Shown here: in pieces, positions 38,087 through 55,678 of the stretch
Layout of the letters: each line of letters begins with the position of its first letter
Numbering within the stretch: the first letter of the stretch is position 1
Source of the DNA: Candidatus Tepidiaquacella proteinivora
Lineage (GTDB): Bacteria; Bacteroidota; Ignavibacteria; Tepidaquicellales; Tepidaquicellaceae
Direction: 5' to 3'
NCBI GenBank assembly: GCA_013348845.1
Contig: CP054675.1
Coordinates: forward strand, 1,311,501-1,375,500
Length of the DNA stretch: 64,000 nt
The notes under the pieces: model-generated
The model's database searches: none
What the model was told of the DNA's origin: nothing
The model's input: only the letters and a program-made list of their open reading frames with translations
Made by a program: the position numbers and the translations under genes

Positions 38087-40257
38087 TTTGCAATAAATGA
38101 TTTATTTTTAAAATTAACTTTAAAATAACAAATTCCTTTATTCGATATTTCAATATCAAAACTATATTTTTTCGTTTCTTTATTAAAGAATGATTTAACA
38201 ATTTCTGATTTCAGGATTATGCTTGTAGGGGAAATTTCATCATTCGCACTAAGATAATACAATAAATAATCTGCTTTTAAAAATATATAAAACGGAGCTA
38301 TAAAATCCTGTAAGAATAACCCTGCCTTGTTGTAAATATGATGTATTGCTATAGTATCATTAACCTGTAAATGATTATAGAAACCAAGCGGTACTTTATA
38401 AAATGCTAAGAAAAAATAGTACAACAACGATTTCTTACTACCAATAAAATTATAAAAATAAAAGACTTTATTATCATTAGTAAAATAAGCGTAAGAGTTT
38501 GTTTTCTTACAATAAATGTAAGAAATATTATAAATATCAGTAAATACCTCCCATTCTACTTTTTTCTTTCTCCCTTTTTCTTCGACTACAAACTGAAGTT
38601 TTTTTTGTGGATATAAATTAAATGAACTTTTCATAAATTCGTTCACTTCAAGATTAAACACTATTTCATTCTTACGAGGTCTTTCATAAGAATTATATTT
38701 AATTTGATTGTTAACCCTACTTAAATAAATACCAAATGGATAATCAATTGTTTCCGCCCCGACAACCGGAAGGGTTTGCAATTGAAAATGAATATGTGGT
38801 TCAGGAGAGCGGCCGGAATTACCGCAAGAAGCAATAACCTGCCCACCTTTCACATAAGCACCTTTTTGAACCTTGAAAGACCCGGGTTTTAAATGACTAA
38901 TCTGAGAATAAAAACCTTCTCCATGCCTTAAAATAATTGAATTCCCCCAATTTTCTTCAATATTAATTTTACCTATTGGATTATCCGGTATGCCATCAAC
39001 AATTTCTTCTACATATCCATCAGCGGGGGCTAATACTGCTTTATCATAACAATAGTAGTCTTCTAAAGCAAGACCTTGATTATTAAATGTCTTTCTATCA
39101 GAATCTATTATAACAAAATCATAAGCATATCTCCATTTGTCTTTATGTGTAATATCACCATTATGAGATTGTGATACTACCCATTCACCATAAAATGGTA
39201 ATCTGATCGAATAATATACCTGATTTCTATAACGATGATTATTATTCACAAAATTATAGAGATTAGTCTCCGGTGAATTCATTTGAATATAGACTTCAGA
39301 AAGTTTAGCGGATCTGTAAAATCTGGATTTAACTACAAGTAAAAATAAAAGCACCGTAACAATAAACGGAAGTGAATAAACTATTAATCCCCATATAGAA
39401 AAAATTCTGTTTGTAGCAAGAAAAATTATCGCGGTAACAGGTGTAAGTACAATTGACCATATATAAGTAGATACTGAGGGAATCATAAAGTATCCCCCTA
39501 TTGCAATAGCGGTAAGAATAAAATTAAAACCAACATAAGCAAAAATGAGTTCAGGATAATTAAGACCAATTAGTTTAAAAAAGTAATAAACGGAATAATA
39601 TCCAATTAAAGATAATGTAAATGAAATTCTCGAATAAAAAAGCAATCCTATTGCTATCAAAAATCCAGCAAATACTTTATGGGGAAAGAAAATAATAGAG
39701 CCAATAGAAGAGAAATAAATTCTGATAGATTCGACAATTTCAAAACTACGAATCCATAAATATTTATCCAATAGTTCTTTACCACCTAACTGATAAACAT
39801 AATTAATAAAATATATATCTCTGTTAGCAAGTTGAATCAAATTAACTTCTTTAATTGCAAGCGAAAGCAACCAGAAGGAAAATAAAAACGGTAAACTTAA
39901 GTAAGGAAGCGAATATTTAGTGAGAAAATTTTCTAAACCAATTGTAATAAAGAAACAAAAAATGGAACTTAAAATAATAAATAAAACTAAAATCCAGTTT
40001 GCTTCGAGCCCAATACTAATACCAATACCAAGCAAAAGAGAATTAAAACCATAATAACCTTTTTTTATGCTAAATCTGTCAAATCCCAATAAATCAGCAG
40101 TAATATTAGCAGTAATTAATGCAATTAACCCACATAATCCGGAAAATGGTTCTAAAAATGTAATTGCTAAAATAATTATTGCAAAAAAAACTTTGTCAGA
40201 AAAAAATATAATTGAATAACTATTTAAAATCGCTCTTATATGTTCTCTAATGCTCAA
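38059..40257 (-). CDS. Urea-transporter-like membrane domain fused to M23 peptidase domain
   Basis: 732 aa. Residues about 15-315 are a polytopic domain of the bacterial UT family (LNSYSIIFFSDKVFFAIIIL start; KKGYYGFNSLLLGIGI, the conserved GLyGFN..L.G loop). Residues about 365-510 are a LysM-less M23/LytM-type domain (THKDKWRYAYDF, then VLAPADGYVEE, GNSIILRHG, CGNSGRSPEPHIHFQL with the HxH zinc site). A further ~220-residue beta-rich domain follows. TTG start at 40257. The peptidase would face the periplasm. The operon links it to a LysA-like decarboxylase and an ATP-grasp enzyme. Actual substrate (urea, amide, peptide) unknown. Confidence 0.8.
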   Translation of the reverse strand: MSIREHIRAILNSYSIIFFSDKVFFAIIILAITFLEPFSGLCGLIALITANITADLLGFDRFSIKKGYYGFNSLLLGIGISIGLEANWILVLFIILSSIFCFFITIGLENFLTKYSLPYLSLPFLFSFWLLSLAIKEVNLIQLANRDIYFINYVYQLGGKELLDKYLWIRSFEIVESIRIYFSSIGSIIFFPHKVFAGFLIAIGLLFYSRISFTLSLIGYYSVYYFFKLIGLNYPELIFAYVGFNFILTAIAIGGYFMIPSVSTYIWSIVLTPVTAIIFLATNRIFSIWGLIVYSLPFIVTVLLFLLVVKSRFYRSAKLSEVYIQMNSPETNLYNFVNNNHRYRNQVYYSIRLPFYGEWVVSQSHNGDITHKDKWRYAYDFVIIDSDRKTFNNQGLALEDYYCYDKAVLAPADGYVEEIVDGIPDNPIGKINIEENWGNSIILRHGEGFYSQISHLKPGSFKVQKGAYVKGGQVIASCGNSGRSPEPHIHFQLQTLPVVGAETIDYPFGIYLSRVNNQIKYNSYERPRKNEIVFNLEVNEFMKSSFNLYPQKKLQFVVEEKGRKKKVEWEVFTDIYNISYIYCKKTNSYAYFTNDNKVFYFYNFIGSKKSLLYYFFLAFYKVPLGFYNHLQVNDTIAIHHIYNKAGLFLQDFIAPFYIFLKADYLLYYLSANDEISPTSIILKSEIVKSFFNKETKKYSFDIEISNKGICYFKVNFKNKSFIANCLTEEKSS

Positions 40258-40270
40258 ATTCTATATTTTA

Positions 40271-41632
40271 TTATTTCTTTAGCTTCAGATGTTCAGGAAC
40301 TGATTCGATTGAGTTAATCATTTTTGTCGTTTCACTTTGCCTTATAACATAAACATCACCTTTTGTAGAAATTAAAACAACTCTTGGTCGCAAAGTTATA
40401 AATTGCATCCATTGAGTCATATTGTAAGCCCCTATTCTACTTATGACTACATTATCACCTTTTTTCAGTGGTGGTAATGAAACAGATTCTCTTAATTGAT
40501 CAATATTCATACAAAGCGGACCGTAAAGTACAGTATTTTCATAATGATGAGAAAAATCCTGGGCAGGGGTAATTTTATGTTCATACCAGAAAGATGTAAA
40601 AAGAATATTAACACCTATATCAAGTATTGTTGCATTTCTGCCATCGGAAAGTTTTTTATTTGCTACTACAGTACCAATTAAGCTCCCCGCATCATCAATC
40701 AGTGCTCTTCCTGTTTCAAGAATTAAAACAGGAAGGTTAGATGGTTCTATTTGCGAATTAATTAATGCTGATGTAATAGCTTCTGCAAAATCATCAAATG
40801 ACGGTGAAACATCAGTACCGGTAAGGTATGAACCCTTAAGAGTATTTTTAGAAGAAAAGCCACCTCCTATATCAATGTATCCAATACTATGATTGAATTT
40901 TCGTTTCAGACTTACTGCTAAATCAGCAAGTTTAGAAGCAGCAATAGCATAAGCTGAAGGTGAAAGAATAAAAGTACCTATATGAGTATGAATTCCAACA
41001 AGACTTAATTTTTTACTAAGCATAATTCTGTTTAATGCTTCCCATGCTTCACCATTTTCATAATTGAAACCAAACCTATCCCAGATAGGATAAATACCGG
41101 TATCCATATTAACTCTAATAGCGACCTTTGGTTTCTTTTTATGTTTATCAGCAATTTCTAATAATGTAAAGAGTTCATCAAAATGGTCAATATGTATATA
41201 AGAACCATTATCAATTGCGGTAATCAAATCACTCTCTGATTTATATGGTCCATTAAAAATAATCTTATTACCTGGCACACCGTTCAAGATTGCTTTTTCG
41301 TATTCGAAGCCGGAAACAACCTCCGCCCAGGAACCTTCCTGATGAAAGATATTACATACTGCGTTTAAATAATTTGTTTTGTATGACCAGGCAAACTGAA
41401 CCTTAGGATATCTTGTCTCAAAAGCCCGCTTTGCTTCGGCAAAGGTTTCCCTTATAGTTTTTTCAGAAATAACAAAAAGTGGAGATCCATATTCTCTAAC
41501 CAGTTCTTTTACAGGAATATTATCAATATGCGTTATTGGTTCGAATTCGGTTTTTGTTCCGAATTTACTTGAAATTCCAATACTTATTTTCCTGATAATT
41601 GGTCTTTCAAAAGTTAATTTTTTTGTTTTCAT
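40271..41632 (-). CDS. LysA-like fold-type III PLP-dependent decarboxylase
   Basis: About 453 aa. The PLP TIM-barrel contains FAWSYKTNYLNAV (Schiff-base Lys), GIHTHIGTFI, YIDIGGGFSS and the C-terminal barrel LETGRALIDDAGSLIGTVV, with GPLCMNIDQL at the site of the DAP-decarboxylase Cys. It belongs to the Orn/DAP/Arg decarboxylase-2 family, but the sequence is more diverged than housekeeping LysA and the gene sits behind an ATP-grasp ligase and PqqD. The ATG at 41632 (MKTKKLTF) is used because the upstream one (41677) would overlap the ATP-grasp gene by 32 bases and lacks homologous-looking sequence. Substrate unknown. Confidence 0.8.
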   Translation of the reverse strand: MKTKKLTFERPIIRKISIGISSKFGTKTEFEPITHIDNIPVKELVREYGSPLFVISEKTIRETFAEAKRAFETRYPKVQFAWSYKTNYLNAVCNIFHQEGSWAEVVSGFEYEKAILNGVPGNKIIFNGPYKSESDLITAIDNGSYIHIDHFDELFTLLEIADKHKKKPKVAIRVNMDTGIYPIWDRFGFNYENGEAWEALNRIMLSKKLSLVGIHTHIGTFILSPSAYAIAASKLADLAVSLKRKFNHSIGYIDIGGGFSSKNTLKGSYLTGTDVSPSFDDFAEAITSALINSQIEPSNLPVLILETGRALIDDAGSLIGTVVANKKLSDGRNATILDIGVNILFTSFWYEHKITPAQDFSHHYENTVLYGPLCMNIDQLRESVSLPPLKKGDNVVISRIGAYNMTQWMQFITLRPRVVLISTKGDVYVIRQSETTKMINSIESVPEHLKLKK

Positions 41633-41645
41633 AATTAATAATAAT

Positions 41646-42695
41646 TTATAATTCTGCGTAAAGAGATAACTTTTCAAACTCTTCTATGTCAGTAATTAAA
41701 TCATAAGAATACCGTATGAAAATTTTACCGACCTGATATTTTTTAAATGGTTTTACTTCAATACCAAGAGCAAGTTTTACTAAAGCTTCAGGTAAGTTTT
41801 GCCCTGCACCAACAGATAAATATACCCAGGCTGGTAAGCGTGGATTGATTTCAACAAGGTAATATTCATTACTTTTTGTTTTTATAATCTCTAATTCCAT
41901 ACCACCTCTCCATTTAGTCTTTCTTATTAGTTTCTTCGTCATTCTTATTAAATTATCGTCTGATAATGTTATACCAGCCCATGCTTTTCCTTTGTCAGTT
42001 ATATAAAGTTTTCTCATTGGTACTGCACCTATGGTGTTTCCTTTGCCATCACCAAGAGCAACAACATTTACTTCAGTACCGGAAACATATTGCTGAATAA
42101 TAATTGGGAAACCCCATTTAGCAGATATTTTCCTTAAATATGTTATCGCTTGCTCTCTATTATAAGAAAGTTCCGCTTCATAAAATTTACCTTTAACATA
42201 AAAAGGATACTTAATGAATTTCTCAACTTCACCTAAATCTTTTTCTGAAAATATTGCTCTGCTTTCAGGAACTTTTACCCCATATTTTTTCCCAAATTCA
42301 GGGAGATTAGATTTATGTCGTTCTTCATATTGCTCAAGAGTTGGTAAAAATGTTTTTATCCCCATTTTTTCAAGTTTATCAGCTGCTTTCATAAATGTAT
42401 AAAGTTCAGCATCAAAATTTGGGATAAGTACATCTATGTTTTCAATATTATTTATATATTCCAATCTTTTAATTAACACACCAGACCCGGCAGTTGGGTA
42501 AGGAATATGATATGATTTCTTAACTAAATTATGCATATAAATACCGGGTTCCAAATTTTCATAAGCGAGGCCAATTATTTTAGCACTAAAAAAATCAGAG
42601 TCAAGAACACCTCTTATAAATGGGATACCAGGTCCAGGATTATCAGTATTATTTAACCCTGTTGCTGCAATTGTAATACGCTTTTTACTCATCAA
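41646..42695 (-). CDS. ATP-grasp ligase (carboxylate-amine ligase type)
   Basis: 349 aa. An N-terminal pre-ATP-grasp Rossmann segment (RITIAATGLNNTDNPGPGIP) is followed by an ATP-grasp fold with PFYVKGKFYEAELSY, IIQQYVSGTEVNVVALGDGK and the metal-binding C-terminus MELEIIKTKSNEYYLVEINPRLPAW (split here only by description; conserved E...NPR). Such enzymes form amide bonds using ATP and a carboxylate. Overlap of 11 bases with pqqD-like and 13 bp to the decarboxylase. Acceptor unknown; a peptide bound by the PqqD-like protein is a reasonable guess. Confidence 0.8.
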   Translation of the reverse strand: MMSKKRITIAATGLNNTDNPGPGIPFIRGVLDSDFFSAKIIGLAYENLEPGIYMHNLVKKSYHIPYPTAGSGVLIKRLEYINNIENIDVLIPNFDAELYTFMKAADKLEKMGIKTFLPTLEQYEERHKSNLPEFGKKYGVKVPESRAIFSEKDLGEVEKFIKYPFYVKGKFYEAELSYNREQAITYLRKISAKWGFPIIIQQYVSGTEVNVVALGDGKGNTIGAVPMRKLYITDKGKAWAGITLSDDNLIRMTKKLIRKTKWRGGMELEIIKTKSNEYYLVEINPRLPAWVYLSVGAGQNLPEALVKLALGIEVKPFKKYQVGKIFIRYSYDLITDIEEFEKLSLYAEL

Positions 42696-42930
42696 TCAAA
42701 ATCTTAAATGTCCTCAATGAACTGATAAAATCATTTAGTGATTTTTCTAAAACAGTTTTACTTACCTCATATTTTTCTAATAATATTTTTATAATGTCAT
42801 CTAAATCTTTACCTTTTCTTAAATATTCGATTATTTCCAATCCAATCGGGTTTAATGAGTATGAATCACCTGTAGAGGTATCGTAAACAAAACCCGTTTC
42901 GCTGAATGCGACTTTTTTATTTATTTTCAT
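42685..42930 (-). CDS. PqqD-family small peptide-binding protein
   Basis: 81 aa. It has the PqqD/RRE-like pattern: VAFSETGFVYDTSTGDSYSL, NPIGLEIIEYLRKGKDLDD, then IIKILLEKYEVSKTVLEKSL and a last helix FISSLRTFKIL. PqqD-type domains bind leader peptides of RiPPs or act as peptide chaperones. Here it is the first gene of the six-gene operon. I looked in the 300 bp upstream and saw no short ORF with leader-peptide features. The overlap with the ATP-grasp gene supports joint action. Confidence 0.75.
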   Translation of the reverse strand: MKINKKVAFSETGFVYDTSTGDSYSLNPIGLEIIEYLRKGKDLDDIIKILLEKYEVSKTVLEKSLNDFISSLRTFKILIDE

Positions 42931-43230: not shown

Positions 43231-44481
43231 ATGAATGAAAAGCAAATTAAGCATAAAGGGTGGTTAGTCACTATATCCGGCTTTATTATTAGTATTTCTC
43301 TTGGCATCTTATATTCCTGGAGTATTTTTAAAACTGAAATTGAACAAAAAATAAAAAGCGGAATTCCCAATACTTTTGATTGGTCATTATCTTCATTAAA
43401 TGACCCATATTCTGTATCTGTTCTTGTTTTTTCTTTTTCAATGATAATAACCGGAAAAATTCAGGATAAAATAGGTCCAAGAATAGCTATAATTATTGGT
43501 GGATTTTTTATAAGTCTCGGTCTCTTTTTATTGTCTCAATCTACAGATTATATAATATGGGTTTTGGGCTTTGGAATTATGTTAGGAATAGGAGTCGCCT
43601 TTTGTTATGCATCTATTACTCCAGCTGCAATAAAATGGTTTAGTCCTGAAAAAACTGGTTTAATTGCCGGAATAATTGTTTCCGGACTTGCTTTGTCATC
43701 GGTTTATATTGCTCCTTTATCTACATATCTAATTGGTAAATTTGGAATTCACTCTACAATGTTATATTACAGTATTGCCTTTTTTCTGGTAATTGTAATT
43801 TTTTCTTTCTTCATTTCTAATCCCCCACCTAACTATTTGGTTACTCCCAGTCATCAAAACAAAAAATTAAAATATAAACAAACAGAAAAATCCCCTCTCG
43901 ATTTTCTAAAAACCGGAATGTTTTATAAAATTTGGTTTATATATTTTATTGGTGCTGGCGTTGGACTAATGGTTTTCAGCTTTATTAATGATTTAGTTAA
44001 AACAGGATTACAGGAGCTTGCATTTTGGGGAGTCATAATTATTGCTTTAGGAAATGCAAGTGGCAGAATTGTTGGTGGCGCTTTATCTGATAAGTTAGGA
44101 TCTAAAAAAACATTGTTAATTATGTTTATTTTCCAGCTAATTCTAATGATTATTTCGACCTTGATTACAATTATCAATCATTACCATCCGGCAACACTTT
44201 TAATTCTATCTACATTAATTGGATTTGCATACGGAACAAATCTTGCGATATTTCCACATATAACAAAAGAGTTATATGGCTTAAAAAATTTTGGTGTGAA
44301 TTACGGAATAATGTTCGTTGCATGGGGACTGGGTGGTTCTCTACTCAGCAGAATTTCTCAGATGCTTTATTCTAATACAAATAGTTTTTCATCATCTTTT
44401 ATTACTGCAATTTTTCTTTTGCTCATAGGTATATACCTAATTCTAAAATTAAAAATGTCAAATAGAAATATGCAACTATAA
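43231..44481 (+). CDS. MFS transporter of the oxalate/formate antiporter (OFA) type
   Basis: 416 aa inner-membrane protein with about 12 hydrophobic segments. The N-terminus WLVTISGFIISISLGILYSW, then IFKTEIEQ, is the OFA hallmark. GKIQDKIGPRIAIIIGG is the TM2-3 loop motif, GRIVGGALSDKLGSKK the TM8-9 loop motif. Substrate is a monocarboxylate or dicarboxylate by family inference. Its TAA at 44479-44481 is followed, in the same frame, by the 12-bp repeat array described separately. Confidence 0.85.
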   Translation: MNEKQIKHKGWLVTISGFIISISLGILYSWSIFKTEIEQKIKSGIPNTFDWSLSSLNDPYSVSVLVFSFSMIITGKIQDKIGPRIAIIIGGFFISLGLFLLSQSTDYIIWVLGFGIMLGIGVAFCYASITPAAIKWFSPEKTGLIAGIIVSGLALSSVYIAPLSTYLIGKFGIHSTMLYYSIAFFLVIVIFSFFISNPPPNYLVTPSHQNKKLKYKQTEKSPLDFLKTGMFYKIWFIYFIGAGVGLMVFSFINDLVKTGLQELAFWGVIIIALGNASGRIVGGALSDKLGSKKTLLIMFIFQLILMIISTLITIINHYHPATLLILSTLIGFAYGTNLAIFPHITKELYGLKNFGVNYGIMFVAWGLGGSLLSRISQMLYSNTNSFSSSFITAIFLLLIGIYLILKLKMSNRNMQL

Positions 44482-44494
44482 TATTTCATTATTT

Positions 44495-44626
44495 CTGTTA
44501 AATTAGTTGCTAAATTAGCTGCTAAATTAGTTGCTAAATTAGCTGCTAAATTAGTTGCTAAATTAGCTGCTAAATTAGTTGCTAAATTAGCTGCTAAATT
44601 AGTCGCTAAATTAGCTGTTAAATGCG
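44495..44626 (+). repeat. 12-bp tandem repeat array (11 units)
   Basis: Eleven consecutive 12-bp units of the form YTGCTAAATTAG. They alternate TTGCTAAATTAG and CTGCTAAATTAG, giving a 24-bp higher-order period, with variants at both ends (CTGTTAAATTAG first, CTGTTAAATGCG last, TCGC in unit 10). The array begins 13 bp after the MFS stop. In the MFS frame it reads without stop as a Lys/Ala/Leu/Val repeat up to a TAA at 44644. Confidence 0.95.
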
Positions 44627-44928: not shown

Positions 44929-44944
44929 TCCCGATAAATCGGGA
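44929..44944. repeat. 16-bp palindrome, copy 1
   Basis: TCCCGATAAATCGGGA: perfect 6-bp arms TCCCGA/TCGGGA with 4-base centre TAAA. It replaces the D-arm 3' part of the degenerate tRNA-Asp. Confidence 0.9.
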
Positions 44945-44965: not shown

Positions 44966-44981
44966 TCCCGATTATTCGGGA
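44966..44981. repeat. 16-bp palindrome, copy 2
   Basis: TCCCGATTATTCGGGA: same arms, centre TTAT. It lies in the T-arm position of the degenerate tRNA-Asp, at the same site as copies 3 and 4 in the GIY-YIG units. Confidence 0.9.
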
Positions 44982-45013: not shown

Positions 45014-45088
45014 GGAGCCGTAGTTCAGTTTGGTTAGAACGCCTGACTGTCACTCAGGAGGTCGCGAGTTCGAGTCTCGTCGGTTCCG
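45014..45088 (+). tRNA. tRNA-Asp (GTC)
   Basis: The acceptor stem GGAGCCG pairs with CGGTTCC (45081-45087), discriminator G at 45088, CCA not encoded. The anticodon stem CCTGA/TCAGG encloses the loop CTGTCAC, anticodon GTC, so Asp. T-arm GCGAGTTCGAGTCTCGT is normal. A terminator follows at 45099. Its 3' end (AGTCTCGTCGGTTCCGC) is repeated twice downstream at the ends of the GIY-YIG units. Confidence 0.95.
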
Positions 45089-45098
45089 CAAAAATATA

Positions 45099-45122
45099 AA
45101 CCCGTACTTTTACGGGTTTTTA
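45099..45122 (+). terminator. Terminator after tRNA-Asp
   Basis: CCCGTA / TACGGG stem (45101-45106 and 45111-45116) with a 4-base loop, followed by TTTTT. It is 10 bp after the tRNA and 5 bp before the first GIY-YIG ATG. Confidence 0.85.
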
Positions 45123-45126
45123 ATTT

Positions 45127-45393
45127 ATGGCTTATTTCACTTACATCCTCAAAAGCAAAGTCAAAGACAGATATTATATTGGCTTTTGCGAAAATCTATT
45201 TAAAAGACTTGAAAAACATAATTCCGGAAACAGCAGATCAACAAAAGCATATATCCCCTGGGAAATTGTTTATTGGGAAAAGTACCACATAAAAAAAGAT
45301 GCCATCAAAAGAGAAAGACAACTAAAAAAATTGAAAAACAAAAAGTATATCGATAATTTAATCAAAAACCACTCAGGAGGTCGTCCCGAGTAA
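45127..45393 (+). CDS. GIY-YIG nuclease-family protein, copy 1
   Basis: 88 aa. A single GIY-YIG domain as in UvrC N-terminus and YhbQ: FTYILKSKVKDRYYIGFC (Y-I-L ... Y-I-G), Arg in the first helix (NLFKRLEKHNSG), and Glu in WEIVYWEKY. The C-terminus HSGGRPE is encoded by tRNA-Asp sequence (ACTCAGGAGGTCG) running into palindrome copy 3; the stop TAA lies in the palindrome centre. It follows the tRNA terminator directly, so expression depends on its own promoter or read-through. The linkage suggests a mobile or homing role, but that is inference. Confidence 0.85.
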   Translation: MAYFTYILKSKVKDRYYIGFCENLFKRLEKHNSGNSRSTKAYIPWEIVYWEKYHIKKDAIKRERQLKKLKNKKYIDNLIKNHSGGRPE

Positions 45394-45399
45394 TCGGGA
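45384..45399. repeat. 16-bp palindrome, copy 3
   Basis: TCCCGAGTAATCGGGA: same arms as copies 1 and 2, centre GTAA. It sits between ACTCAGGAGGTCG and AGTCTCGTCGG, replacing the CGAGTTCG T-loop bases of the genuine tRNA-Asp. Confidence 0.9.
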
Positions 45400-45427
45400 A
45401 GTCTCGTCGGTTCCGCAAAAATATAAA

Positions 45428-45449
45428 CCCGTACTTTTACGGGTTTTTA
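45428..45449 (+). terminator. Terminator, repeat copy
   Basis: Identical copy of the CCCGTA/TACGGG hairpin plus T-run, here between the two GIY-YIG genes. A third copy would begin at 45755 but is cut off after AAACCC. Confidence 0.8.
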
Positions 45450-45453
45450 ATTT

Positions 45454-45720
45454 ATGGCTTATTTCACTTACATCCTCAAAAGCAAAGTCAAAGACAGATA
45501 TTATATTGGCTTTTGCGAAAATCTATTTAAAAGACTTGAAAAACATAATTCCGGAAACAGCAGATCAACAAAAGCATATATCCCCTGGGAAATTGTTTAT
45601 TGGGAAAAGTACCACATAAAAAAAGATGCCATCAAAAGAGAAAGACAACTAAAAAAATTGAAAAACAAAAAGTATATCGATAATTTAATCAAAAACCACT
45701 CAGGAGGTCGTCCCGAGTAA
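45454..45720 (+). CDS. GIY-YIG nuclease-family protein, copy 2
   Basis: Identical 88-aa product to the gene at 45127, in the second 327-bp unit; no substitution was seen in the coding sequence. Identity at DNA level indicates a very recent duplication, gene conversion or an assembly artefact. The same GIY-YIG residues (Y, YIG, Arg, Glu) are present, and the same tRNA-plus-palindrome C-terminal coding end. Confidence 0.82.
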   Translation: MAYFTYILKSKVKDRYYIGFCENLFKRLEKHNSGNSRSTKAYIPWEIVYWEKYHIKKDAIKRERQLKKLKNKKYIDNLIKNHSGGRPE

Positions 45721-45726
45721 TCGGGA
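45711..45726. repeat. 16-bp palindrome, copy 4
   Basis: Same as copy 3 (centre GTAA), closing unit 2 and followed by the third AGTCTCGTCGGTTCCGC fragment. Confidence 0.9.
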
Positions 45727-45863
45727 AGTCTCGTCGGTTCCGCAAAAATATAAACCCATGTAATGTACCCATTAGATCAAATAAATAAAAAATGATTTAA
45801 TTTAAGAAATTACTTTTAAAATCCCTTTTTATAAAATACAACTTTTTATATTTAAATTCTGAC

Positions 45864-47558
45864 TTAAATATTTTTATTATACATTGTAAATTGCAATGTG
45901 AAATCGAAATATTCCCCTTTAGTGTAATGGTAGCACATAACTCTCTGAAAGTTAGGGTTGTGGTTCGAATCCACAAAGGGGAGCCATTTTGAACGGTTTT
46001 TCAAACCTATATAAGAAGGAACAAAAGAGGGTGATACTGGCTCACCGCCAGCAGTCGCCCTCGCAGTTCCACCGCTCTGGCTTTGTGCTGGCAGGTTCGC
46101 TCTGAAATTCGGCAGGTAAAACAGATTAACTCCTATCTCGTCTTTCCCGTAAATTATGTCTTTAATAAGGTATTGAAACAAATAAGGTTTTTCTTCGTCT
46201 TTAATTTCTTGAAGTCGCTCAACAAAATTTCTTAAATTCTCTAAAACAATTTTTGCTTCAAATTTTTCCTTCATTTCTTTCTGAATTGAAAGTCCCACCC
46301 CCTCTAAATCAAATTCTAATATCTTTTTCTCTTGCTCTAATCCTGATAATTCCTTCCTCACTGTTGGGAATAGACGGTCATCTGATTCAGATAAAAAAGA
46401 AACCAATTTTTTGATTTTGCTATTAAGTTCATCAATCCTTGTCTGTATCTGTCTTTCTTTTTCTCTCAAAGGAGACAATCTCTGTTCCTCATCGTGATTT
46501 ATCCTTCTGACAAGTTTTTCAATACTTGATTCATCTTTGCTTATTTCAACTAATTTTTTTGTTATAAATTCTTCAACCCTGTTAGCATTTACATATTTGA
46601 TACTGCAACTTTGCCAATCGTGTTTACAGGTTTTGGTACAACGATAATAATAAATGTATCTTTTACCAGTTTTCTCTTGCTTCAAAGTATAAGAAGGTGT
46701 CATAACCGAATCGCATTCTTGACACTTCAATAAACCACCTAACAAAAAAGGTCTTTTTATTTTTGTTTCAGGTCTAATCTGAATTCTCCGTAAACTCTGA
46801 ACCTTCAAAAACATTGCTTCAGGGATAATTGCTTTATGAACACCATCAAATAATTTGCCTTTGTGTTCTATTTTTCCAATATAAATTGGATTTCGTAGAA
46901 TATTATCAATTGAACCTTTACAAAAAATGTTCCCTTTCTTCGTTTTGTAACCGAGTTGGTTTATTCTTCTTCTGGTTTCAGCAAGCGATTGTGTCTCAAG
47001 AAAAATCTGAAATATTTTCTTAATTCCTTCTGACTCATTTTCATCTATCTCTAATTTTTTATCCACATTCTTATAACCATAAGGCACTAATCCACCGTTC
47101 CACAATCCTTTTTCTCGTCTCTGTTGCATTTTGTCTTTTGTCCTTTCGGCTGTAAGTTCTCGTTCAAATTGTGCGAAAGTAAGTATTATGTTCCGTAGTA
47201 ATCTCCCAGACGGAGAGGAAGTATCAAAATTTTCTGTAACAGAAATAAAAGAAACTCCATACTTATCAAAAAACTCAATGAGGTTATAAAAATCCTTTGG
47301 TGAACGGGTAAGACGGTCAATTTTATATGTGAGAATACAGTTTATTTTACCTTCTGTTATATCCTTAAATAATTCCTGTAATGCGGGTCTTTCTAAACTT
47401 GCACCTGAATAACCAGCATCACTATAAATTTTATAAACTTCTAAATTTTCCTGACTTCTGATAAAAGATTTTATTTTCTCTGTCTGTGCTTCGCAAGAAT
47501 TAAATTCCTTTTCAGCCTGATTATCAGTTGATACTCTTGTATAAATTGCACATTTCAT
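45864..47558 (-). CDS. Large serine recombinase (resolvase/invertase family)
   Basis: 564 aa. The N-terminal resolvase domain has catalytic Ser10 (AIYTRVSTDNQAE), YSDAGYSGASLERPAL and TYKIDRLTRSPKDFYNL. A recombinase domain (KGLWNGGLVPYGYKN, SIDNILRNPIYIGKI) and a zinc ribbon (LKCQECDSVMTPSYTL, CTKTCKH) are followed by a coiled coil (about residues 350-440). The C-terminal ~40 residues (KWLPFVDSNHNPNFQ...) are antisense tRNA-Gln translation. A GC-rich stretch at 46020-46110 encodes QSGGTARATAGGEPVSPS. It likely integrated the island carrying the genes to the right. The real C-terminus might end earlier in other alleles. Confidence 0.9.
   Translation of the reverse strand: MKCAIYTRVSTDNQAEKEFNSCEAQTEKIKSFIRSQENLEVYKIYSDAGYSGASLERPALQELFKDITEGKINCILTYKIDRLTRSPKDFYNLIEFFDKYGVSFISVTENFDTSSPSGRLLRNIILTFAQFERELTAERTKDKMQQRREKGLWNGGLVPYGYKNVDKKLEIDENESEGIKKIFQIFLETQSLAETRRRINQLGYKTKKGNIFCKGSIDNILRNPIYIGKIEHKGKLFDGVHKAIIPEAMFLKVQSLRRIQIRPETKIKRPFLLGGLLKCQECDSVMTPSYTLKQEKTGKRYIYYYRCTKTCKHDWQSCSIKYVNANRVEEFITKKLVEISKDESSIEKLVRRINHDEEQRLSPLREKERQIQTRIDELNSKIKKLVSFLSESDDRLFPTVRKELSGLEQEKKILEFDLEGVGLSIQKEMKEKFEAKIVLENLRNFVERLQEIKDEEKPYLFQYLIKDIIYGKDEIGVNLFYLPNFRANLPAQSQSGGTARATAGGEPVSPSFVPSYIGLKNRSKWLPFVDSNHNPNFQRVMCYHYTKGEYFDFTLQFTMYNKNI
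45913..45986 (+). tRNA. tRNA-Gln (CTG), CCA encoded
   Basis: The acceptor TCCCCTT pairs with AAGGGGA, discriminator G, then CCA at 45984-45986. D-arm GTGTAATGGTAGCAC. Anticodon stem TAACT/AGTTA with loop CTCTGAA, anticodon CTG. T-arm TGTGG-TTCGAAT-CCACA. The whole gene lies antisense within the 3' end of the serine recombinase ORF, so it probably holds the attachment site of the island to its right. Confidence 0.9.
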
Positions 47559-47614: not shown

Positions 47615-47706
47615 TGTGGAAGTTGAACTTTTGTTGCTATGTACGAAAGGGTTACACAAACCAACAAACGCCGAATGGCTCGAAAAACCGAGCAATGGAA
47701 TATAAC
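47615..47706 (-). repeat. Dispersed ~92-bp repeat, copy 1
   Basis: From TGTGGAAGTTGA to TATAAC. It matches 49843-49935 with few differences and shares GTTGCTATGTACGAAA, AACGCCGAATGGCTCG and AAAAACCGAGCAATGGAA. It contains a GCTCG/CGAGC hairpin (47678-47693). It is notably more GC-rich than the host background. Confidence 0.85.
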
Positions 47707-47806: not shown

Positions 47807-48853
47807 TCACTCAATCATCAATATATCGGATGAAACTCCAAATTTTTCTAATAGCCGCTTGGTATAATTTATACAGCTAGCAGTACTATAATTTGTTTCT
47901 ATCCACAATCCATTTGAAAGTTTTTTGGGAGCACGAAAATCATCACCGTACTTGTGCTTCGGCTCCTTGTTAATAATGTTTCTTTTCCCCCGTCCAATCC
48001 CTACTGGGCAGTCGGAGGGTTTCAACTTGCCACTCTTTATGAGCCAATTGGCAGTATTTACTAAAATCTCAAAAGAATTGCGGAGTTCAAAGACTTCATC
48101 TTTTAGTTTCATTTTTCGTGGAGTTCCACCTCGCCATGATATGGATTCTATAGGGGTCTCAGTCGGAGTCTCTTCCTCAGATGGACCTGAAATTATTTCC
48201 TTGACCCTTTCTTTCAACAAATCCTCAATTTCTGTGTCTTCAAACTGATAGTCTGGATAACCTTGACTGATAATCGACTTAACCACAGGCATTAGACCCT
48301 TAATCATTTCTTCAGGCTCATCCAAGAGAGATTGCCAGATTTCATCCAATATTTGAGCTTTCTTCACTAAAACTTCTATATGCTCGATGTTAGTTTTTGA
48401 GATTGCCACTATCTTTCTGAGAACCGCTGGCAGTTCTTCATTTTCTAAATCTGCTTTCCAAACGATTCGCTCAGTTAAAGTAGTCCCCTCCTCGAATGAC
48501 CTAATCAGTATCCATACTGCGCCGTTGGTCAATACGCCGTACTTTGTTCCCTCGCTAAAAGAGTACTTCGCTAATTGGCGAATGACTTCTTTTTGTTCAA
48601 TATCAACACTAAGTTTTTTTGCTTCAACGAATAGGATTTTCTTTCCATTCTTGATCAAAGAGTAGTCAGGTACGCCTTCTTCTGTATATACATTAGGCTG
48701 AACTTCTTCGGGATTTTCAGGATTCCATCCAAGATTCCTCAAAATGGGATTTACAATTTGATCCCTCACTGCCATCTCGTTCTGTTCGTACAGAGAACGA
48801 AACTTCTTTATTTTCTCTACTATTGGCGCTAACGCCTCATTTAAATTGTTCAT
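47807..48853 (-). CDS. Type I restriction HsdR-N-like protein (PD-(D/E)XK nuclease fold)
   Basis: 348 aa. The N-terminal half resembles the HSDR_N/DUF4145-neighbour nuclease module: RDQIVNPILRNLGWNPENP, then GVPDYSLIKNGKKILFVEAKK with the Asp and Glu-x-Lys of a PD-(D/E)XK site at about residues 63-79, then QLAKYSFSEGTKYGVLTNG. No helicase motor follows; instead a linker and a C-terminal region (LSNGLWIETNYSTASCINY). It is therefore a stand-alone protein, not a full HsdR. Start preceded by AAAAGGAG. It lies between attC-like sequences and may be a cassette. Target unknown. Confidence 0.7.
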   Translation of the reverse strand: MNNLNEALAPIVEKIKKFRSLYEQNEMAVRDQIVNPILRNLGWNPENPEEVQPNVYTEEGVPDYSLIKNGKKILFVEAKKLSVDIEQKEVIRQLAKYSFSEGTKYGVLTNGAVWILIRSFEEGTTLTERIVWKADLENEELPAVLRKIVAISKTNIEHIEVLVKKAQILDEIWQSLLDEPEEMIKGLMPVVKSIISQGYPDYQFEDTEIEDLLKERVKEIISGPSEEETPTETPIESISWRGGTPRKMKLKDEVFELRNSFEILVNTANWLIKSGKLKPSDCPVGIGRGKRNIINKEPKHKYGDDFRAPKKLSNGLWIETNYSTASCINYTKRLLEKFGVSSDILMIE

Positions 48854-48932: not shown

Positions 48933-49489
48933 TCACAAATCAATCCAATAAATATTTACAAGTTTTTCTTCCATGTCAGGAATCTCTAAAAGTAGATTGC
49001 CTGTATATATTTTTGTTTCTGTTAAAATACCACCGCATTTTTCTATTGTTTTGATAGACGGTAAGTTGTCCGAAAAACATCCTAACATCAACTTTTTAAT
49101 ACCCAGCGATTTAGCGTATTCGATTCCCATTTTCAAAATTTGTGTTGCATAGCCTTTTTTTCTTTCGCTTGGTCGAACGGAAAATCCTATATGACCACCG
49201 TATTTCGCTAAAAATTCATTTTCTAAATTATGTCTAATGTCGATTACTCCGACAATTTTATTATCTGTTTTCTGACAGCAAAAAATGTAGTTGCTGGTAC
49301 CCAATTAGGACTGGCAGTGCTTTTGTGTCTATTTTTTACATTGTATTCCAGCCATTCTTCATATTCCATTTGGTCAAGCAAAGCACTTCCGTTTATAACC
49401 GTTTCCCCATTTTCAAAAAATTCCCTTTTGAAATCTTCCGCTGTTTTTTTATGCTCTAAAGTTGGTAGCTGTAATTCTAATTCATTCAT
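48933..49489 (-). pseudogene. GNAT acetyltransferase, frameshifted
   Basis: Two overlapping minus-strand frames join into one GNAT protein. Residues 1-81 from 49489 (MNELELQLPTLEHKKTAEDF ... NWVPATTFFAVRK) continue in the other frame as DNKIVGVIDIRHNLENEFLA, HIGFSVRPSERKKGYATQIL, ending at 48933. The break is at an A run (plus-strand TTTT at 49268-49271); one additional A would restore the frame. The acetyl-CoA motif RPSERKKGYAT is intact. Either a real pseudogene, a sequencing error in a homopolymer, or slippage. It lies between cassette-like boundaries. Confidence 0.78.
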
Positions 49490-49842: not shown

Positions 49843-49935
49843 TGTGGAAGTTGATCTGTTGTTGCTATGTACGAAAAGGATTATACAGACCAACTAACGC
49901 CGAATGGCTCGAAAAACCGAGCAATGGAATATAAC
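49843..49935 (-). repeat. Dispersed ~92-bp repeat, copy 2
   Basis: Second copy of the 47615 repeat, including the GCTCG/CGAGC hairpin and the trailing TATAAC. The sequence diverges right after TATAAC, where copy 1 enters its attC-like hairpin and copy 2 enters another inverted repeat. Confidence 0.85.
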
Positions 49936-50387: not shown

Positions 50388-51149
50388 TTATAAATCACCT
50401 TTATCTTTGATAAATTCCAAGAGACCAAAAAATTCAATAAAGGAAGTGAGTGGTAAAATTTGTTTTAAATATTTTTTGCTGATTTTTTCGGCAAGTTTTT
50501 TGTAATCATTGGTTAACGGATATATTTCAATTAAGTTTTTCAGAAAAATAGCCATCCTTTCATTTTTATCAGATTCGTAAATAATCATATAAAGAGGCAC
50601 GATAATATTGAAAAACATTTCCAGTTTTCTTGAGCGTCCCAACCCGCCAAAAGACATAATATGATTTACAATATTTTTTATATTTTTATTGTTTAATTCA
50701 TCACAAAAAGAAGACTCTATCTTTTCTTTAAAAAAATTAAAGATGCTTTTTTCAATAGTTTCAGCAAGTAGATATGATATTTGAGTAATTCTATTTTCTG
50801 GATAGTTTGCGGGACGGGTTTCTTTATGTGTCCAGGCATCTTTGGGCATTGTTAAAGAAAAATCAAAAAAATCAGGAATAAGTGATTTGTCAGTGATAAA
50901 TCCCGCACGATAAAGTAGTGCTTTTTCTATGATTTCTCTTTTTCCAATCTTTCTTACTTCTGAATATGGCAATAGAGTAGCTAATTCAAGAAAAGGAAGC
51001 TTGTTGTGTTTATATCCAAGTGATAGCATTATTTCTCTATACAATGCTTCATCTGGAAGCGCAATTTTTAAAAGGTTTCGCATCCTTTGTTTTTTGTTCT
51101 CAAAACGTTGAAGACCGAGATTCACAAAATTAGGTATTTGTTGGCTCAT
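50388..51149 (-). CDS. DUF2851-like protein (C-terminal-type fragment)
   Basis: 253 aa. The segment LQRFENKKQRMRNLL, then DEALYREIMLSLGYKHNKLP, then FLELATLLPYSEVRK resembles the middle of DUF2851 proteins, which are normally over 400 aa. The N-terminal part of the family seems absent, so this may be a truncated or shortened member. No catalytic residues can be assigned. Start overlaps the four-helix-bundle gene stop by 4 bases, arguing for a functional operon. Function unknown. Confidence 0.6.
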   Translation of the reverse strand: MSQQIPNFVNLGLQRFENKKQRMRNLLKIALPDEALYREIMLSLGYKHNKLPFLELATLLPYSEVRKIGKREIIEKALLYRAGFITDKSLIPDFFDFSLTMPKDAWTHKETRPANYPENRITQISYLLAETIEKSIFNFFKEKIESSFCDELNNKNIKNIVNHIMSFGGLGRSRKLEMFFNIIVPLYMIIYESDKNERMAIFLKNLIEIYPLTNDYKKLAEKISKKYLKQILPLTSFIEFFGLLEFIKDKGDL

Positions 51150-51721
51150 TGTTTATTATCTCTGAAGTTTTTTCTTAGTCTATACATCCTTTCTGTAAAA
51201 CCGCCCTCCCTTAAAAACTGCTCTTCAAGGCTTCTTTTTTGCTGGTCTAAGAGGTAATTTGTCTGGTGAATAAGGCAGATGATGGTATTTGCTGCTACTT
51301 CGGGAGAAGCGCTTTCAATATAGGTCCTATATGACATATAAGATCTATCCTTTATCCGTCCTAACTGTCTTATCTCAACAGCCTTCGTGTCATTCTTTTG
51401 CCATAGTTTAAAGCCATTTTGCCTTAAATAGTCCTCAAAATCCTGCAAAAGTTCTTCAAGGCTTGCTCGGGCAATACCTATCAACTTCAGTTCTGTCTTT
51501 TTTGATGTCCCCGATGCCATGCTACCTTCAACTATATTTTGCTTACCACTTCGTGCAGCTTGAACCATCTGGTCAAAAGTTCTGGAACGCTTATCAATAA
51601 ACCGCTCACAAAACTTTACCGTTGCATCGTAAACTATCTCTGCCATCTGGTATGACACAAGATTTCTGTAGCCACCGTGTGGTGGGATAAGGTTGTTGTT
51701 TATATCATTATTATTAATCAT
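51146..51721 (-). CDS. Four-helix-bundle protein (23S rRNA IVS-protein related)
   Basis: 191 aa. The core has YRNLVSYQMAEIVYDATVKF, CERFIDKRSRTFDQMVQAAR, SGKQNIVEGSMASGTSKKTE and LARASLEELLQDFEDYLRQ-like segments, as in the four-helix-bundle suffix proteins and intervening-sequence proteins. These often form pentamers and turn up in accessory islands; biochemical role unknown. A longer C-terminal region distinguishes it from the ~120-aa IVS proteins. Overlaps the DUF2851-like gene and lies 4 bp from the ATPase gene stop. Confidence 0.72.
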   Translation of the reverse strand: MINNNDINNNLIPPHGGYRNLVSYQMAEIVYDATVKFCERFIDKRSRTFDQMVQAARSGKQNIVEGSMASGTSKKTELKLIGIARASLEELLQDFEDYLRQNGFKLWQKNDTKAVEIRQLGRIKDRSYMSYRTYIESASPEVAANTIICLIHQTNYLLDQQKRSLEEQFLREGGFTERMYRLRKNFRDNKQ

Positions 51722-51725
51722 TGAA

Positions 51726-53177
51726 TTATGGTTTTTCCTTTAAAACTTTTAATAAATTTATCATTTGCTTGATAGATATCTGTAAATCTTCTTGACTAAA
51801 ATTTTCTTCTTTCATTGTTAAATTTTCTGGATGATGTATTTTATTTCGTATAAAAGTTTGCAAGGTTACATCTTCTGCATTTTGTGCGTTACCATTAATT
51901 TCTTTTGTCCATTTTCTGACCTTTTGAATCCCTTTAGAAACTAAAAATTCATCAAATTCTTTTATTGTATATCTTTCACTTAATTCTTGTAAATATCCAT
52001 ACAGTTCATTATGAAACTCAACGGTAGGTAATTCATACGCAAAATAATTTATTTCGCCCCAAGAAGGACTCCAAGGAAATAACCCACCCGACTTGAAATC
52101 ATTTATTTCAATCGAATCATTATTTATTTTGGTAATAATTACTTTTACATTTTCTTTACCAATATACTCTTTGAAAATAAATGGTGAATGAGTTGAGACA
52201 ACTATTTGTATATTCTTAGATATTTTATAAAGATAATTCATCAATTTTATTTGCAAAATTGGATGTAAATGTAATTCGGGCTCGTCGATTAAAATTAATA
52301 TTTGTTCTTTAGAATAAGAAGCCAACGTCTCAAGAAACAATAATGATATTATCATTTCAATACCTGAGCCTAAATATTTTACAGGTAGATCTAGTAATCC
52401 TATTTTTTGGGATAAGAATGTCGTATCAAAGGGAGCTTGTGAATCAATAAAACATAATTTTACATCTGATAAACCTAAAGACACTAACTTTTTATTAAGT
52501 ATTTCTATAATATCTTTTTTATCTGCCAGATTTAATTTAGCAATTATTGAATTTTCTAATTCTTGTTTTTTAGCATAATATTCATCATCAGAATTAATAG
52601 ATTTCAAGAATCGCCAGTTGAAATCATCAATTATTGTTGAAAATGATGTATTGAAACCCTTTGTTATTTGTTTTTCTCTTTCTCTGCTAAAATAAAACGA
52701 TCTGATAAACTCGGCTTCTGCAATATTCAATGATAGTAATCTCTCATCAAATTTAAAATCCGAACCATTTTTTCTTTTTATTTTCCAACCATCATTTTCT
52801 CGATTTTGTATTGGGTTATAAAAATGTTCAACTACAACTAAATCATTAAATGCCTTTCCCGGCGCAGCCTTCTCTCGTTTTTTGATATTAAGTTGAATTC
52901 CTTTGCATTGAACTTGTTGTGTTGTATATCCGTCAGGAAGTTTTACATTAAATTTATTGGTCTGGATTTCTATTGAAATCGGAGCATTTTCACCTTTATA
53001 AAAATCCGTATGCTTAATTCTTCCGGATAAAAAATATGGTGAAAGTGCATAATTTATTGTTTCAAGAATTGAAGTTTTTCCAGTTTGATTATCTCCTATA
53101 AGAATATTAAAATTATTAAGCTCCAAAGATAAGTCTTTAATTACTCTGAAATTTTTAATAGTAATTTTTTCTATCAT
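51726..53177 (-). CDS. AAA-family ATPase (OLD/RecF-like, AAA_15/AAA_21 type)
   Basis: 483 aa. KITIKNFRVIKDLSLELNNF, then the Walker A NILIGDNQTGKTSILETIN, a long insertion, then Walker B ILILIDEPELHLHP and the switch VVSTHSPFI. This is the DNA-repair/defence ABC-type ATPase seen in OLD, PARIS-like and retron systems. No TOPRIM nuclease motif is visible in the C-terminus, so any effector would be another protein. The ATG at 53177 is preferred over 53189, because a strong GGAGGGG site lies 3-9 bases before it. Partner likely among the neighbouring genes. Confidence 0.78.
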   Translation of the reverse strand: MIEKITIKNFRVIKDLSLELNNFNILIGDNQTGKTSILETINYALSPYFLSGRIKHTDFYKGENAPISIEIQTNKFNVKLPDGYTTQQVQCKGIQLNIKKREKAAPGKAFNDLVVVEHFYNPIQNRENDGWKIKRKNGSDFKFDERLLSLNIAEAEFIRSFYFSREREKQITKGFNTSFSTIIDDFNWRFLKSINSDDEYYAKKQELENSIIAKLNLADKKDIIEILNKKLVSLGLSDVKLCFIDSQAPFDTTFLSQKIGLLDLPVKYLGSGIEMIISLLFLETLASYSKEQILILIDEPELHLHPILQIKLMNYLYKISKNIQIVVSTHSPFIFKEYIGKENVKVIITKINNDSIEINDFKSGGLFPWSPSWGEINYFAYELPTVEFHNELYGYLQELSERYTIKEFDEFLVSKGIQKVRKWTKEINGNAQNAEDVTLQTFIRNKIHHPENLTMKEENFSQEDLQISIKQMINLLKVLKEKP

Positions 53178-53202
53178 AATCCCCTCCATTTTTTATTTTT
53201 TC

Positions 53203-53398: not shown

Positions 53399-55678
53399 TT
53401 ATTGTGTTGAATTTATACTTTCACACAGCGCATCATAATGTTCTTTGTCTTTTTTTTCTAACATTAAAAGTATAGTTCTTACAGCAGTTTCAACTTCATT
53501 AATATCAGGAAATCTTTGAGTATGCTCTGGATTTTCTTCGTGTGAATATTCATCAAGAATTTTAAGAGTAGTTTTTGTCGCGGATTCATTTGCAGAATCT
53601 TTAAAAAATTTATATGTCTTCTCTTTAAATTTGCTCCCATCTGGATATTTTGTAAACAAATATAATTCAAGAAATCTTCTTGCAATATTCGGTAAGATAT
53701 AAAGTAATTCAAAATTGTTTTTATCGTTAGATTCGTTAAACCCCTTTAATATTGAAAAAAGATAATTATATTCACTTTTAAAATTTCTTAAAACCTTTGG
53801 CAACTCTGTTATTGTTGAAATTTTATCACCATTTGATTGAATCTTTTTAATTAAATAATAGTTTTCTTTATCTGTTTTACTTCTTCTATTTGGTGTTCCT
53901 TCGGGATCGCCTTTTACCATATCTTTTAAAAGATTATAAAAATCAAAATTATGTGTAGTAATAAACACCTGCCCGCAATCTTTTAATTTTTCCGATAAAA
54001 ATCCATAAACTTGAAAAGTATGATTACAATCAAGACTGGAAACTGGGTCATCAATAAAAACTTTTGCATTTGTTTTATCAAAATTATTCTCTTCTAACTT
54101 AGTTATAAAGTAAATCAAAGAAATAATATTCTTTTCTCCGGTACTTAAGTTTTTTGCTATATTTTCAGCTCGTTTTATTTGATAGGTTCCATCCAGAAGG
54201 GGTATTAATTTTATTCGATCGTCTCCAAAAAAATGTTTAAGATATTCGTTTATTTTGTCTGCTCCGATATTTGTCTGTTTTATTTTCGAATTTATATCAT
54301 TGATTAATTGCAAAATATTTTTATATTCCTCTTCTTTTTCATTTTTTTGTTTTTTTAATTTATCAATTTCTTCTTTTAACTCAAAATATTTTATTTCACC
54401 AATTGCTTTTGCTGAATAATGGTTTATAAGTGTTTTTTTAATCTGTTTCTTTTCATTTTCTAACTGGTTAATTTTATTATTGTTGTTAACAATTATGTCG
54501 TTAACATCATTCACATATTGATTAATTTGCTCTTCAAGTTTGGTTATGGAGAAATCAATATTCAAGCTGTCAAATGGTTTATTTCTTTTTTCTTTTATTT
54601 TTTCAAGTAGAGTATTTAGTGCATTTATATACTCACTTTGTAATTTATTCTTTAACTCTTCTTTCTTTTGTTCATAATCGTTTGTAAAATCTGGATAAAA
54701 TCTTGCTTTATCTACGTATTCAATTTTACTAATGTCGTTTTTATGGTTGTTTATTTGGTCCTCCAGTGATTTCAAATCTTGTATTAGGCTATCGTATTCT
54801 TCAGAAAAGTGTTTGTTTAATTTGTCAAATAAATCATCAGGCAACTTGTTGCCACAAAATTGACAGGATGTCTCATTACGATGTAAATCCAAACCTTTTC
54901 TAACCCATTGATTTAATTCAGGATTGTTTTTTAGCTTTTCAATTATTTGTTGTGCGGTTATCTTTCTTTCACAAATATTTTTTATTTCTTTATAAAGTGA
55001 ATCTGCTCTTAATGGAATAGAGAGAGTATTGATAGATTCATAATTCGTTTGATCTCTATATAGTCGAAGATTTTTATTTTCTTCATCGTCTGTTAAAATA
55101 TAATTTTGATCTTCTGAATTTATTTCTTCAATTTTTTGTTTTAATGTATTTTTATCAAATTCTCGCTGGTTAGTAATTCCTAATATCCTTCTTATATCAC
55201 TAGCTTTGTTTGTTAATTTTTCCTCTAATTCTTTGGTGTTTTTATCAAAATTTTCTTCAATGTTTTTCTTTTCCTCTTTAAGTTTTTGTTCTGTATTTTC
55301 ATAATCCTTTAACTTCTTTTGTAATTCAATTGATTCTGCACCTAAAATCAAAACTGGATGAATCCTATGGTTTTCATCATTCCATTTAAAATTTTCTTCA
55401 ACAAAATCCTCATTAAAGACACGGATAGTATAATTATTACCAATATCAGTTTGAGAAATATTCCCATTTTCTGTTTGCAATTTAAATTCCAAAGCAGAAT
55501 AATCTGGATGTAATTTTTTCTCTTCAAGACATCTAAATAATCTTGATAGCGTGGTCTTGCCCGAGTAGTTCCATCCATAAAAGAAATTAAATTGTTTAAA
55601 TTCAAGACAATTATAATCCCAGGAATAATTTTTGAATAACCCTAGATTTTGAATTTGAGAAATTTTCTTTATTCTCAT
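53399..55678 (-). CDS. RloC/PrrC-like anticodon nuclease with Zn-hook ABC-ATPase
   Basis: 759 aa. Walker A FFYGWNYSGKTTLSRLF (about residues 32-48), long coiled coil with a Zn-hook-like SCQFCG (Cys272, Cys275), then Walker B KVFIDDPVSSLD and TTHNFDFYNLL. The C-terminal part carries NIARRFLELYLF (Arg667 and Glu671) and EYSHEENPEH (His713), the Arg-x3-Glu...His triad arrangement of PrrC/RloC anticodon nucleases. Family role: when DNA restriction is compromised, it cleaves or excises tRNA anticodon nucleotides, blocking phage translation. The adjacent methylase and helicase genes fit the coupling of such enzymes to R-M systems. Assignment is by motif, not search. Confidence 0.75.
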   Translation of the reverse strand: MRIKKISQIQNLGLFKNYSWDYNCLEFKQFNFFYGWNYSGKTTLSRLFRCLEEKKLHPDYSALEFKLQTENGNISQTDIGNNYTIRVFNEDFVEENFKWNDENHRIHPVLILGAESIELQKKLKDYENTEQKLKEEKKNIEENFDKNTKELEEKLTNKASDIRRILGITNQREFDKNTLKQKIEEINSEDQNYILTDDEENKNLRLYRDQTNYESINTLSIPLRADSLYKEIKNICERKITAQQIIEKLKNNPELNQWVRKGLDLHRNETSCQFCGNKLPDDLFDKLNKHFSEEYDSLIQDLKSLEDQINNHKNDISKIEYVDKARFYPDFTNDYEQKKEELKNKLQSEYINALNTLLEKIKEKRNKPFDSLNIDFSITKLEEQINQYVNDVNDIIVNNNNKINQLENEKKQIKKTLINHYSAKAIGEIKYFELKEEIDKLKKQKNEKEEEYKNILQLINDINSKIKQTNIGADKINEYLKHFFGDDRIKLIPLLDGTYQIKRAENIAKNLSTGEKNIISLIYFITKLEENNFDKTNAKVFIDDPVSSLDCNHTFQVYGFLSEKLKDCGQVFITTHNFDFYNLLKDMVKGDPEGTPNRRSKTDKENYYLIKKIQSNGDKISTITELPKVLRNFKSEYNYLFSILKGFNESNDKNNFELLYILPNIARRFLELYLFTKYPDGSKFKEKTYKFFKDSANESATKTTLKILDEYSHEENPEHTQRFPDINEVETAVRTILLMLEKKDKEHYDALCESINSTQ

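Follow-up and report, generated by a model that had tools for sequence, protein, structure and literature searches.

The large serine recombinase gene at 45864–47558 probably marks the left end of an integrated island. We consider it very likely that this island, 20,992 bp between its inferred ends, entered the 3′ end of a tRNA-Gln(CTG) gene by means of its own recombinase. The window is the stretch of 64,000 nucleotides analysed here (C1:1311501–1375500 of a single-contig genome of 2,403,876 bp); the right end of the island falls 3.0 kb past it, and positions beyond the window are given as extended positions in the same numbering. The recombinase, its overlap with the tRNA and the cargo genes were observed directly, as was the collinearity of the flanks in a sister species that has no island. 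The left end and the attachment sites comprise:

45864–47558, minus strand: large serine recombinase (integrase), 564 aa in the integrated state, with an ATG start and a 3′ end that crosses the attachment site
45913–45986, plus strand: tRNA-Gln(CTG), the target gene (ARAGORN)
45979–45982, plus strand: attL core GGGA, tRNA positions up to 72, common to the inferred attR
45981–45982, plus strand: probable crossover dinucleotide GA
45999–46007, plus strand: right arm of attP, TTTCAAACC, which recurs inverted as GGTTTGAAA at the element's right end
Extended 66971–66974 (C1:1378471–1378474), outside the window: inferred attR core GGGA

The 564-aa protein has the architecture of the large serine recombinases, with an N-terminal resolvase domain containing the serine, followed by a Recombinase domain and a zinc ribbon, and all three Pfam matches are above the cut-offs (Resolvase, PF00239, 1.4e-39; Recombinase, PF07508, 1.6e-16; Zn_ribbon_recom, PF13408, 1.2e-10). 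The alignment columns checked at Arg8, Ser10 (within the YTRVST motif) and Arg83 are all kept, and the catalytic serine is conserved in all 17 aligned proteins. By sequence similarity the enzyme resembles the TP901-1 (1.6e-27) and A118 (1.3e-18) integrases and matches a PHROG integrase family (4.2e-120); it is not a Ccr recombinase of SCCmec, scoring 233.7 bits against a cut-off of 900 for the NCBIfam CcrB equivalog. In the tree it groups with proteins from Patescibacteria and Nitrospirota (support 100/99), a position that would fit horizontal transfer, and six tRNA-Asn recombinases of its own phylum form a separate clade (100/99). No match was found in viral contigs, those in plasmids and phages are all below 60% identity, and the home genome has just one further match, a decayed fragment interrupted by an in-frame stop (C1:569684–570034). 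This second, decayed serine recombinase is near a tRNA-Ser(GCT) gene (G000:C1:568863–571500; L002, L022) whose end, GCCATTTTCAA, resembles GCCATTTTGAA in the window, and methylase-like and other defence-like genes follow it.

The first-pass annotation had the recombinase frame running across the whole tRNA gene, and it does: the tRNA at 45913–45986 lies wholly within the ORF, antisense, and the inferred crossover leaves the codons of the C-terminal 38.7 residues on its tRNA side. Family profiles give no coverage beyond about residue 482, and the tail is probably under no protein-level selection because its readings differ among close relatives from Patescibacteria. Overlap of this kind exceeds chance, since 10 of the 16 related recombinases with a complete 3′ end finish inside a tRNA gene in antisense (nine Asn, one Gln), against a coverage of about 0.13% of the 2.40-Mb home genome by its 42 tRNA genes. 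A contig search contributed 13 loci, eight of them with a complete recombinase 3′ end: an ARAGORN tRNA is overlapped in four (L033, Gln; L034, L036 and L038, Asn), the recombinase of L037 terminates on a 3′ tRNA fragment, and no tRNA was found at the recombinase end in L031, L032 and L039; L035 and L040–L043, which are cut or broken, were excluded from the count. Among 395 genomes of the phylum, eight besides the home genome match the recombinase at E ≤ 1e-40, and six of these overlap tRNA-Asn(GTT); those of L045 and L046 do not. Four other tRNA-Asn loci (L111, L114, L120, L130) carry recombinase remnants with no intact gene, and the attachment end therefore outlives the element. The accompanying remark that serine recombinases are rarer than tyrosine integrases at tRNA genes is in line with PMC10654092 and PMC4701971, the former describing mycobacterial prophages with tyrosine integrases at tRNA genes and a PICI with a serine integrase that integrates elsewhere; within the recombinase group sampled here, however, more members target a tRNA than do not.

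Integration apparently rewrote the end of the target tRNA, which now reads GGGGAGCCA (also given, for the integrated state, as GGGAGCCA). Homologous tRNA-Gln genes free of the element (G007, G009 and G021) end in GGGGAAC, GAGGAAC or similar, with A73 and no CCA, and the last four bases of the window gene, GCCA, would thus come from the element. Because these homologues have no CCA and an encoded CCA is rare in the home genome (5 of 42 tRNAs), attR was sought as a site that restores the native tRNA end and mirrors the element side of attL. An encoded CCA was also considered as a general mark of such elements and rejected. It is missing in 2 of the 11 element-bound tRNAs, three of the five CCA-encoding tRNAs of the home genome have no integrase adjoining, and in the tRNA-Asn loci the expected association of an encoded CCA with a recombinase or relic was not significant (7/12 against 3/13, Fisher p = 0.11), a count that omitted L112, L136 and L138 (too little downstream DNA) and L121 and L122 (no tRNA-Asn). 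Relics likewise adjoin CCA-less tRNA-Asn genes (L113, L116), and at L135 the recombinase close to a CCA-less tRNA is intact.

The ends of serine integrase elements have only a few bases in common. The other attachment site had been expected to be a repeat of the tRNA-Gln end, but this 20-nt sequence is unique in the genome even when two mismatches are allowed, and the ends would share a 4-bp core instead; no useful local repeat common to both ends was found. The site at extended 66971, GGTTTGAAAGTTGTCTAATAATGGGAACAG, carries an arm that mirrors TTTCAAACC. It was initially chosen by eye and then scored for arm symmetry among GGGA sites, where it comes second among the 432 in 184 kb and leads the 24 of the bracket 64788–68241 (17.0 against 13.0 for the next). 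No other site in the bracket has both arms and, as here in GGGAAC, the AC needed to give back the native tRNA end. Once rejoined, the flanks fold into a tRNA-Gln that ends, as expected, in GGGGAAC, like the gene of three element-free relatives. A short common core with differing attL and attR flanks is thus predicted for the window element (GGGA), as for two relatives treated below, G384 and G085 (GGAGC).

Crossover would take place in the GGGA core of the acceptor stem, probably at the dinucleotide GA, as suggested by the symmetry of the attP arms and by the presence of GA in all 11 element-bound tRNA ends. The predicted attP sits inside the recombinase gene, towards its 3′ end. Integration would then couple the tRNA body to element DNA supplying base 73 and the CCA, changing A73 to G73, and would swap the recombinase tail from 25 residues encoded at the far end of the element (550 aa) to 39 antisense tRNA and host residues (564 aa). 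Excision is predicted to restore both genes, leaving an empty site with the tRNA-Gln end ...AAAGGGGAACAGATAATTG. The reading of the tail would be incidental, the underlying DNA being the attachment site.

Collinearity of the window with G002, one of the two same-genus genomes, starts close to the left edge of the window, reaches the MFS gene (43231–44481) and resumes rightward from extended 68241, with different DNA between these blocks except for the tRNA-Asp and GIY-YIG genes. Both same-genus genomes (G001 and G002) lack tRNA-Gln(CTG), the recombinase and the type IIG restriction gene. In the window the tRNA is completed; the recombinase and the tested cargo are absent from sister genomes that also lack the tRNA. 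Relatives sharing all genes across the site would have spoken against an island; collinear G002 has neither the tRNA-Gln, the recombinase nor the tested cargo. Integration at the tRNA, the position of the recombinase beside the attachment site, the left boundary and the continuation of the island past 64 kb, all claimed in the first-pass annotation, are supported. The recombinase is absent from all relatives among the 40 genomes searched, apart from a 32-residue match in G007 that falls antisense on the tRNA-Gln of that genome. The type IIG restriction-methyltransferase is present at 66% in G017, which lacks tRNA-Gln(CTG); this tRNA is sporadic in the family, with three other same-family genomes carrying it among the 40 relatives. 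None of the genomes searched has tRNA-Gln(CTG) in place without the element, and the empty site is a reconstruction. In G009 the tRNA-Gln(CTG) gene (C29:128652–128731, L028) adjoins a homologue of window 36117–36761.

The sporadic distribution of tRNA-Gln(CTG) and its absence from both same-genus genomes would also be expected if the element itself carried the tRNA and the true left boundary lay to the left of it. We regard this as unlikely, as the G009 gene lies beside the same gene block (collinear with window 36117–42930), with the home tRNA about 9 kb away, which suggests vertical descent and local movement; moreover, the predicted attR gives back the native tRNA end, and in two relatives the crossover falls within the tRNA end. 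It is similarly improbable that 66971 is a chance match and that the island really ends at another place on the right, for example past 68 kb or where the IS-like element has its edge. One GGGA site in the 184 kb, at 90620, does score higher (17.5), though it is past 68241, where collinearity with G002 resumes, and no other site in the bracket combines the two arms with the native tRNA end.

Much less probable than either is that the overlap is an effect of annotation, with a resident recombinase that has no stop before the tRNA and no recent integration. The lack of profile coverage in the tail and its varying readings among the close Patescibacteria relatives would be compatible with it, but the frequency of tRNA overlap among the relatives far exceeds the tRNA coverage and the sister genomes have no recombinase. 

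The left flank has several features of its own. A GIY-YIG nuclease gene is present in two identical copies (45127–45393 and 45454–45720) within a 327-bp tandem repeat at 45073–45757, just downstream of tRNA-Asp, with a tRNA-Asp remnant at the end of each copy; in G002, too, there are two copies at the tRNA-Asp, but these have diverged. The palindrome TCCCGANNNNTCGGGA occurs inside tRNA-Asp-like remnants at 44929–44944, 44966–44981, 45384–45399 and 45711–45726, its only four sites in the 2.4-Mb genome, all within 800 bp. A short tandem repeat array of the TTGCTAAATTAGC type (44499–44623) lies downstream of the MFS gene.

The cargo of the island consists mostly of restriction and defence (anti-phage) genes:

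47807–48853, minus strand: protein with an HsdR N-terminal nuclease-like domain (PF04313; Pfam)
48933–49304, minus strand: GNAT acetyltransferase (Pfam)
50388–51149, minus strand: DUF2851 protein, partial match (Pfam)
51146–51721, minus strand: 23S rRNA-intervening-sequence-like protein, below the Pfam cut-off
51726–53189, minus strand: AAA_15 ATPase, AriA/Old/PtuA/GajA-like
53399–55678, minus strand: AAA_13 ATPase (PADLOC PDC-S06)
55691–56935, minus strand: DUF3644 protein (PADLOC PDC-S19)
56939–60514, minus strand: type IIG restriction-methyltransferase, Eco57I-like
60518–60811, minus strand: YhcG_C nuclease part of a split DUF1016/YhcG gene
60906–61547, minus strand: DUF1016_N part of the same split gene
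61549–64000, gene extending to extended 64788, minus strand: SNF2-type helicase, PLD-like N-terminal part

The two ORFs of the DUF1016/YhcG gene (60518–61547) are probably the result of a frameshift. An IS-like transposase element lies close to the right end of the island (extended ~65170–66630). No conjugation or virion genes that would point to an ICE or a prophage were seen among the Pfam-scanned ORFs of 46–64 kb, five of which were also scanned against PHROG; the stretch 64.8–67.0 kb was viewed as ORFs only. A 93-bp intergenic repeat, 92% identical, is found inside the island at 47615–47706 and 49843–49935.

Both ends could be read in two tRNA-Asn relatives, the elements of G384 (36,752 bp) and G085 (22,514 bp), each with the core GGAGC. 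At attL the tRNA-Asn ends in ...GGAGC, after which come CA and a hairpin belonging to the element; at attR the arm (G)TTCGCAGG is followed by about 15 bases, GGAGC and a host-side terminator-like hairpin with a T-run, which matches element-free tRNA-Asn loci. The two element ends resemble each other as far as GGAGC and soon differ past it. A blind scan for the attR arm in six relatives was convincing in G384 alone, and the end in G085 was located later through collinearity with G384; the scan gave nothing in G281 and G195, and the right ends of G128 and G323 fell outside the stretches scanned.

When the circle is closed in G384 and G085, the recombinase ORF is in frame with a far-end ORF starting at the core, giving circular and integrated forms of 660 and 571 aa (G384) and of 661 and 572 aa (G085). 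The recombinase and this far-end module join in uninterrupted frames in four of four cases (660 codons in G384, 661 in G085, 653 in G128, 650 in G323), the frames of related elements not being independent of each other; G195 has a different frame at the core. These frames place the putative attP inside the recombinase gene, and integration would sever a conserved, HTH-like C-terminal module of about 108 aa and leave it at the far end of the element. G384 and G085 share about 50% identity in their modules, and with a profile built from these two, 21 of the 92 genomes in one family were found to carry the module. Among the 33 matches, 25 share a contig with a tRNA-Asn and eight are elsewhere; all 25 lie downstream of the tRNA-Asn 3′ end on the opposite strand, as predicted, and most full-length modules start at GGAGC, with an arm reading TTCGCA or TCCGCA before it. 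At least two modules stand in a row downstream of one tRNA in G120, G128, G190, G319, G453 and G457, as would be expected if elements stack at one site.

Ten positions are invariant in 19 modules. No solved structure and no confident Pfam family was found for the module, its HTH matches are weak and below the cut-offs, and a PHROG recombinase family matches 13 of the 19 (best 3.3e-6); together these matches suggest a DNA-binding C-terminal domain. Weak similarity was also seen to the C terminus of the recombinase of L046. The longest open frame around any module is at most 210 aa, so that no chromosomal module is joined to a recombinase; plasmids, phages and viral contigs likewise yielded no unsplit gene. 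Against a split gene as the whole account, codon 7 is ATG, GTG or TTG in 17 of the 19 modules, and the module may therefore also be translated by itself, perhaps to serve as a directionality factor. The window element is without a module, its predicted circular form having 550 aa with the 25-residue tail.

Large serine integrases of the TP901-1/A118/SPbeta type have the same domain order as the window recombinase and are similar to it in sequence; the sites of these phages are protein genes, and their attP adjoins the integrase gene and is not inside it. SSV1, in turn, integrates at a tRNA gene. A parallel is provided by streptococcal ICEs with a single serine integrase, where the att site lies inside the integrase gene, 3′ parts are exchanged so that the C terminus changes on integration at rumA, and the repeats are 2–21 bp (PMC4701971). 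In contrast to these elements, which target a protein gene, the window recombinase reads a tRNA 3′ end in antisense, no conjugation genes were seen, and the tRNA-Asn relatives lose a conserved module. By its described anatomy, phage Mx8 is also comparable, with attP inside the integrase gene and a 112-residue C-terminal sequence that integration replaces by 13 residues, giving a less active enzyme, although its integrase is of the tyrosine type (PMC4701971). The archaeal suicidal (SSV-type) integrases likewise have the recombination site in the integrase gene and its parts at both ends of the element; they are tyrosine enzymes whose catalytic part goes with the severed C-terminal fragment, and such self-disruption is said to be exclusive to archaea (PMC8371274). 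The window enzyme, a bacterial serine recombinase, lies outside that group, and a gene split is predicted in four of its relatives; contrary to the archaeal case, the serine enzyme would keep its catalytic domain and lose either the C-terminal module (relatives) or a short tail (window). Searches of open-licence papers for tRNA-targeting serine integrases and for attP sites inside integrase genes returned no description of this recombinase family.

On balance we lean towards regarding the tRNA-Asn relatives as a bacterial serine counterpart of the archaeal suicidal integrases, with an in-frame attP in a gene of 650–661 codons, exchange of the ~108-residue module for antisense tRNA sequence, a loss of the module that would set the direction of recombination, so that the split itself would act as the switch, and the window element as a reduced form that swaps a short tail only. 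The window element is probably a new member of the tRNA islands driven by serine integrases, to which this family would add a variant, an integrase gene cut at its own attachment site. Serine integrases of this family are directed at tRNA ends and keep the tRNA intact, a property of use in genome engineering, and the window element apparently changes the discriminator base of its target. If the split is true, a bacterial serine family also splits itself at tRNA genes, and the control of direction would be testable by comparing the circular (~660 aa) and integrated (~571 aa) enzymes.
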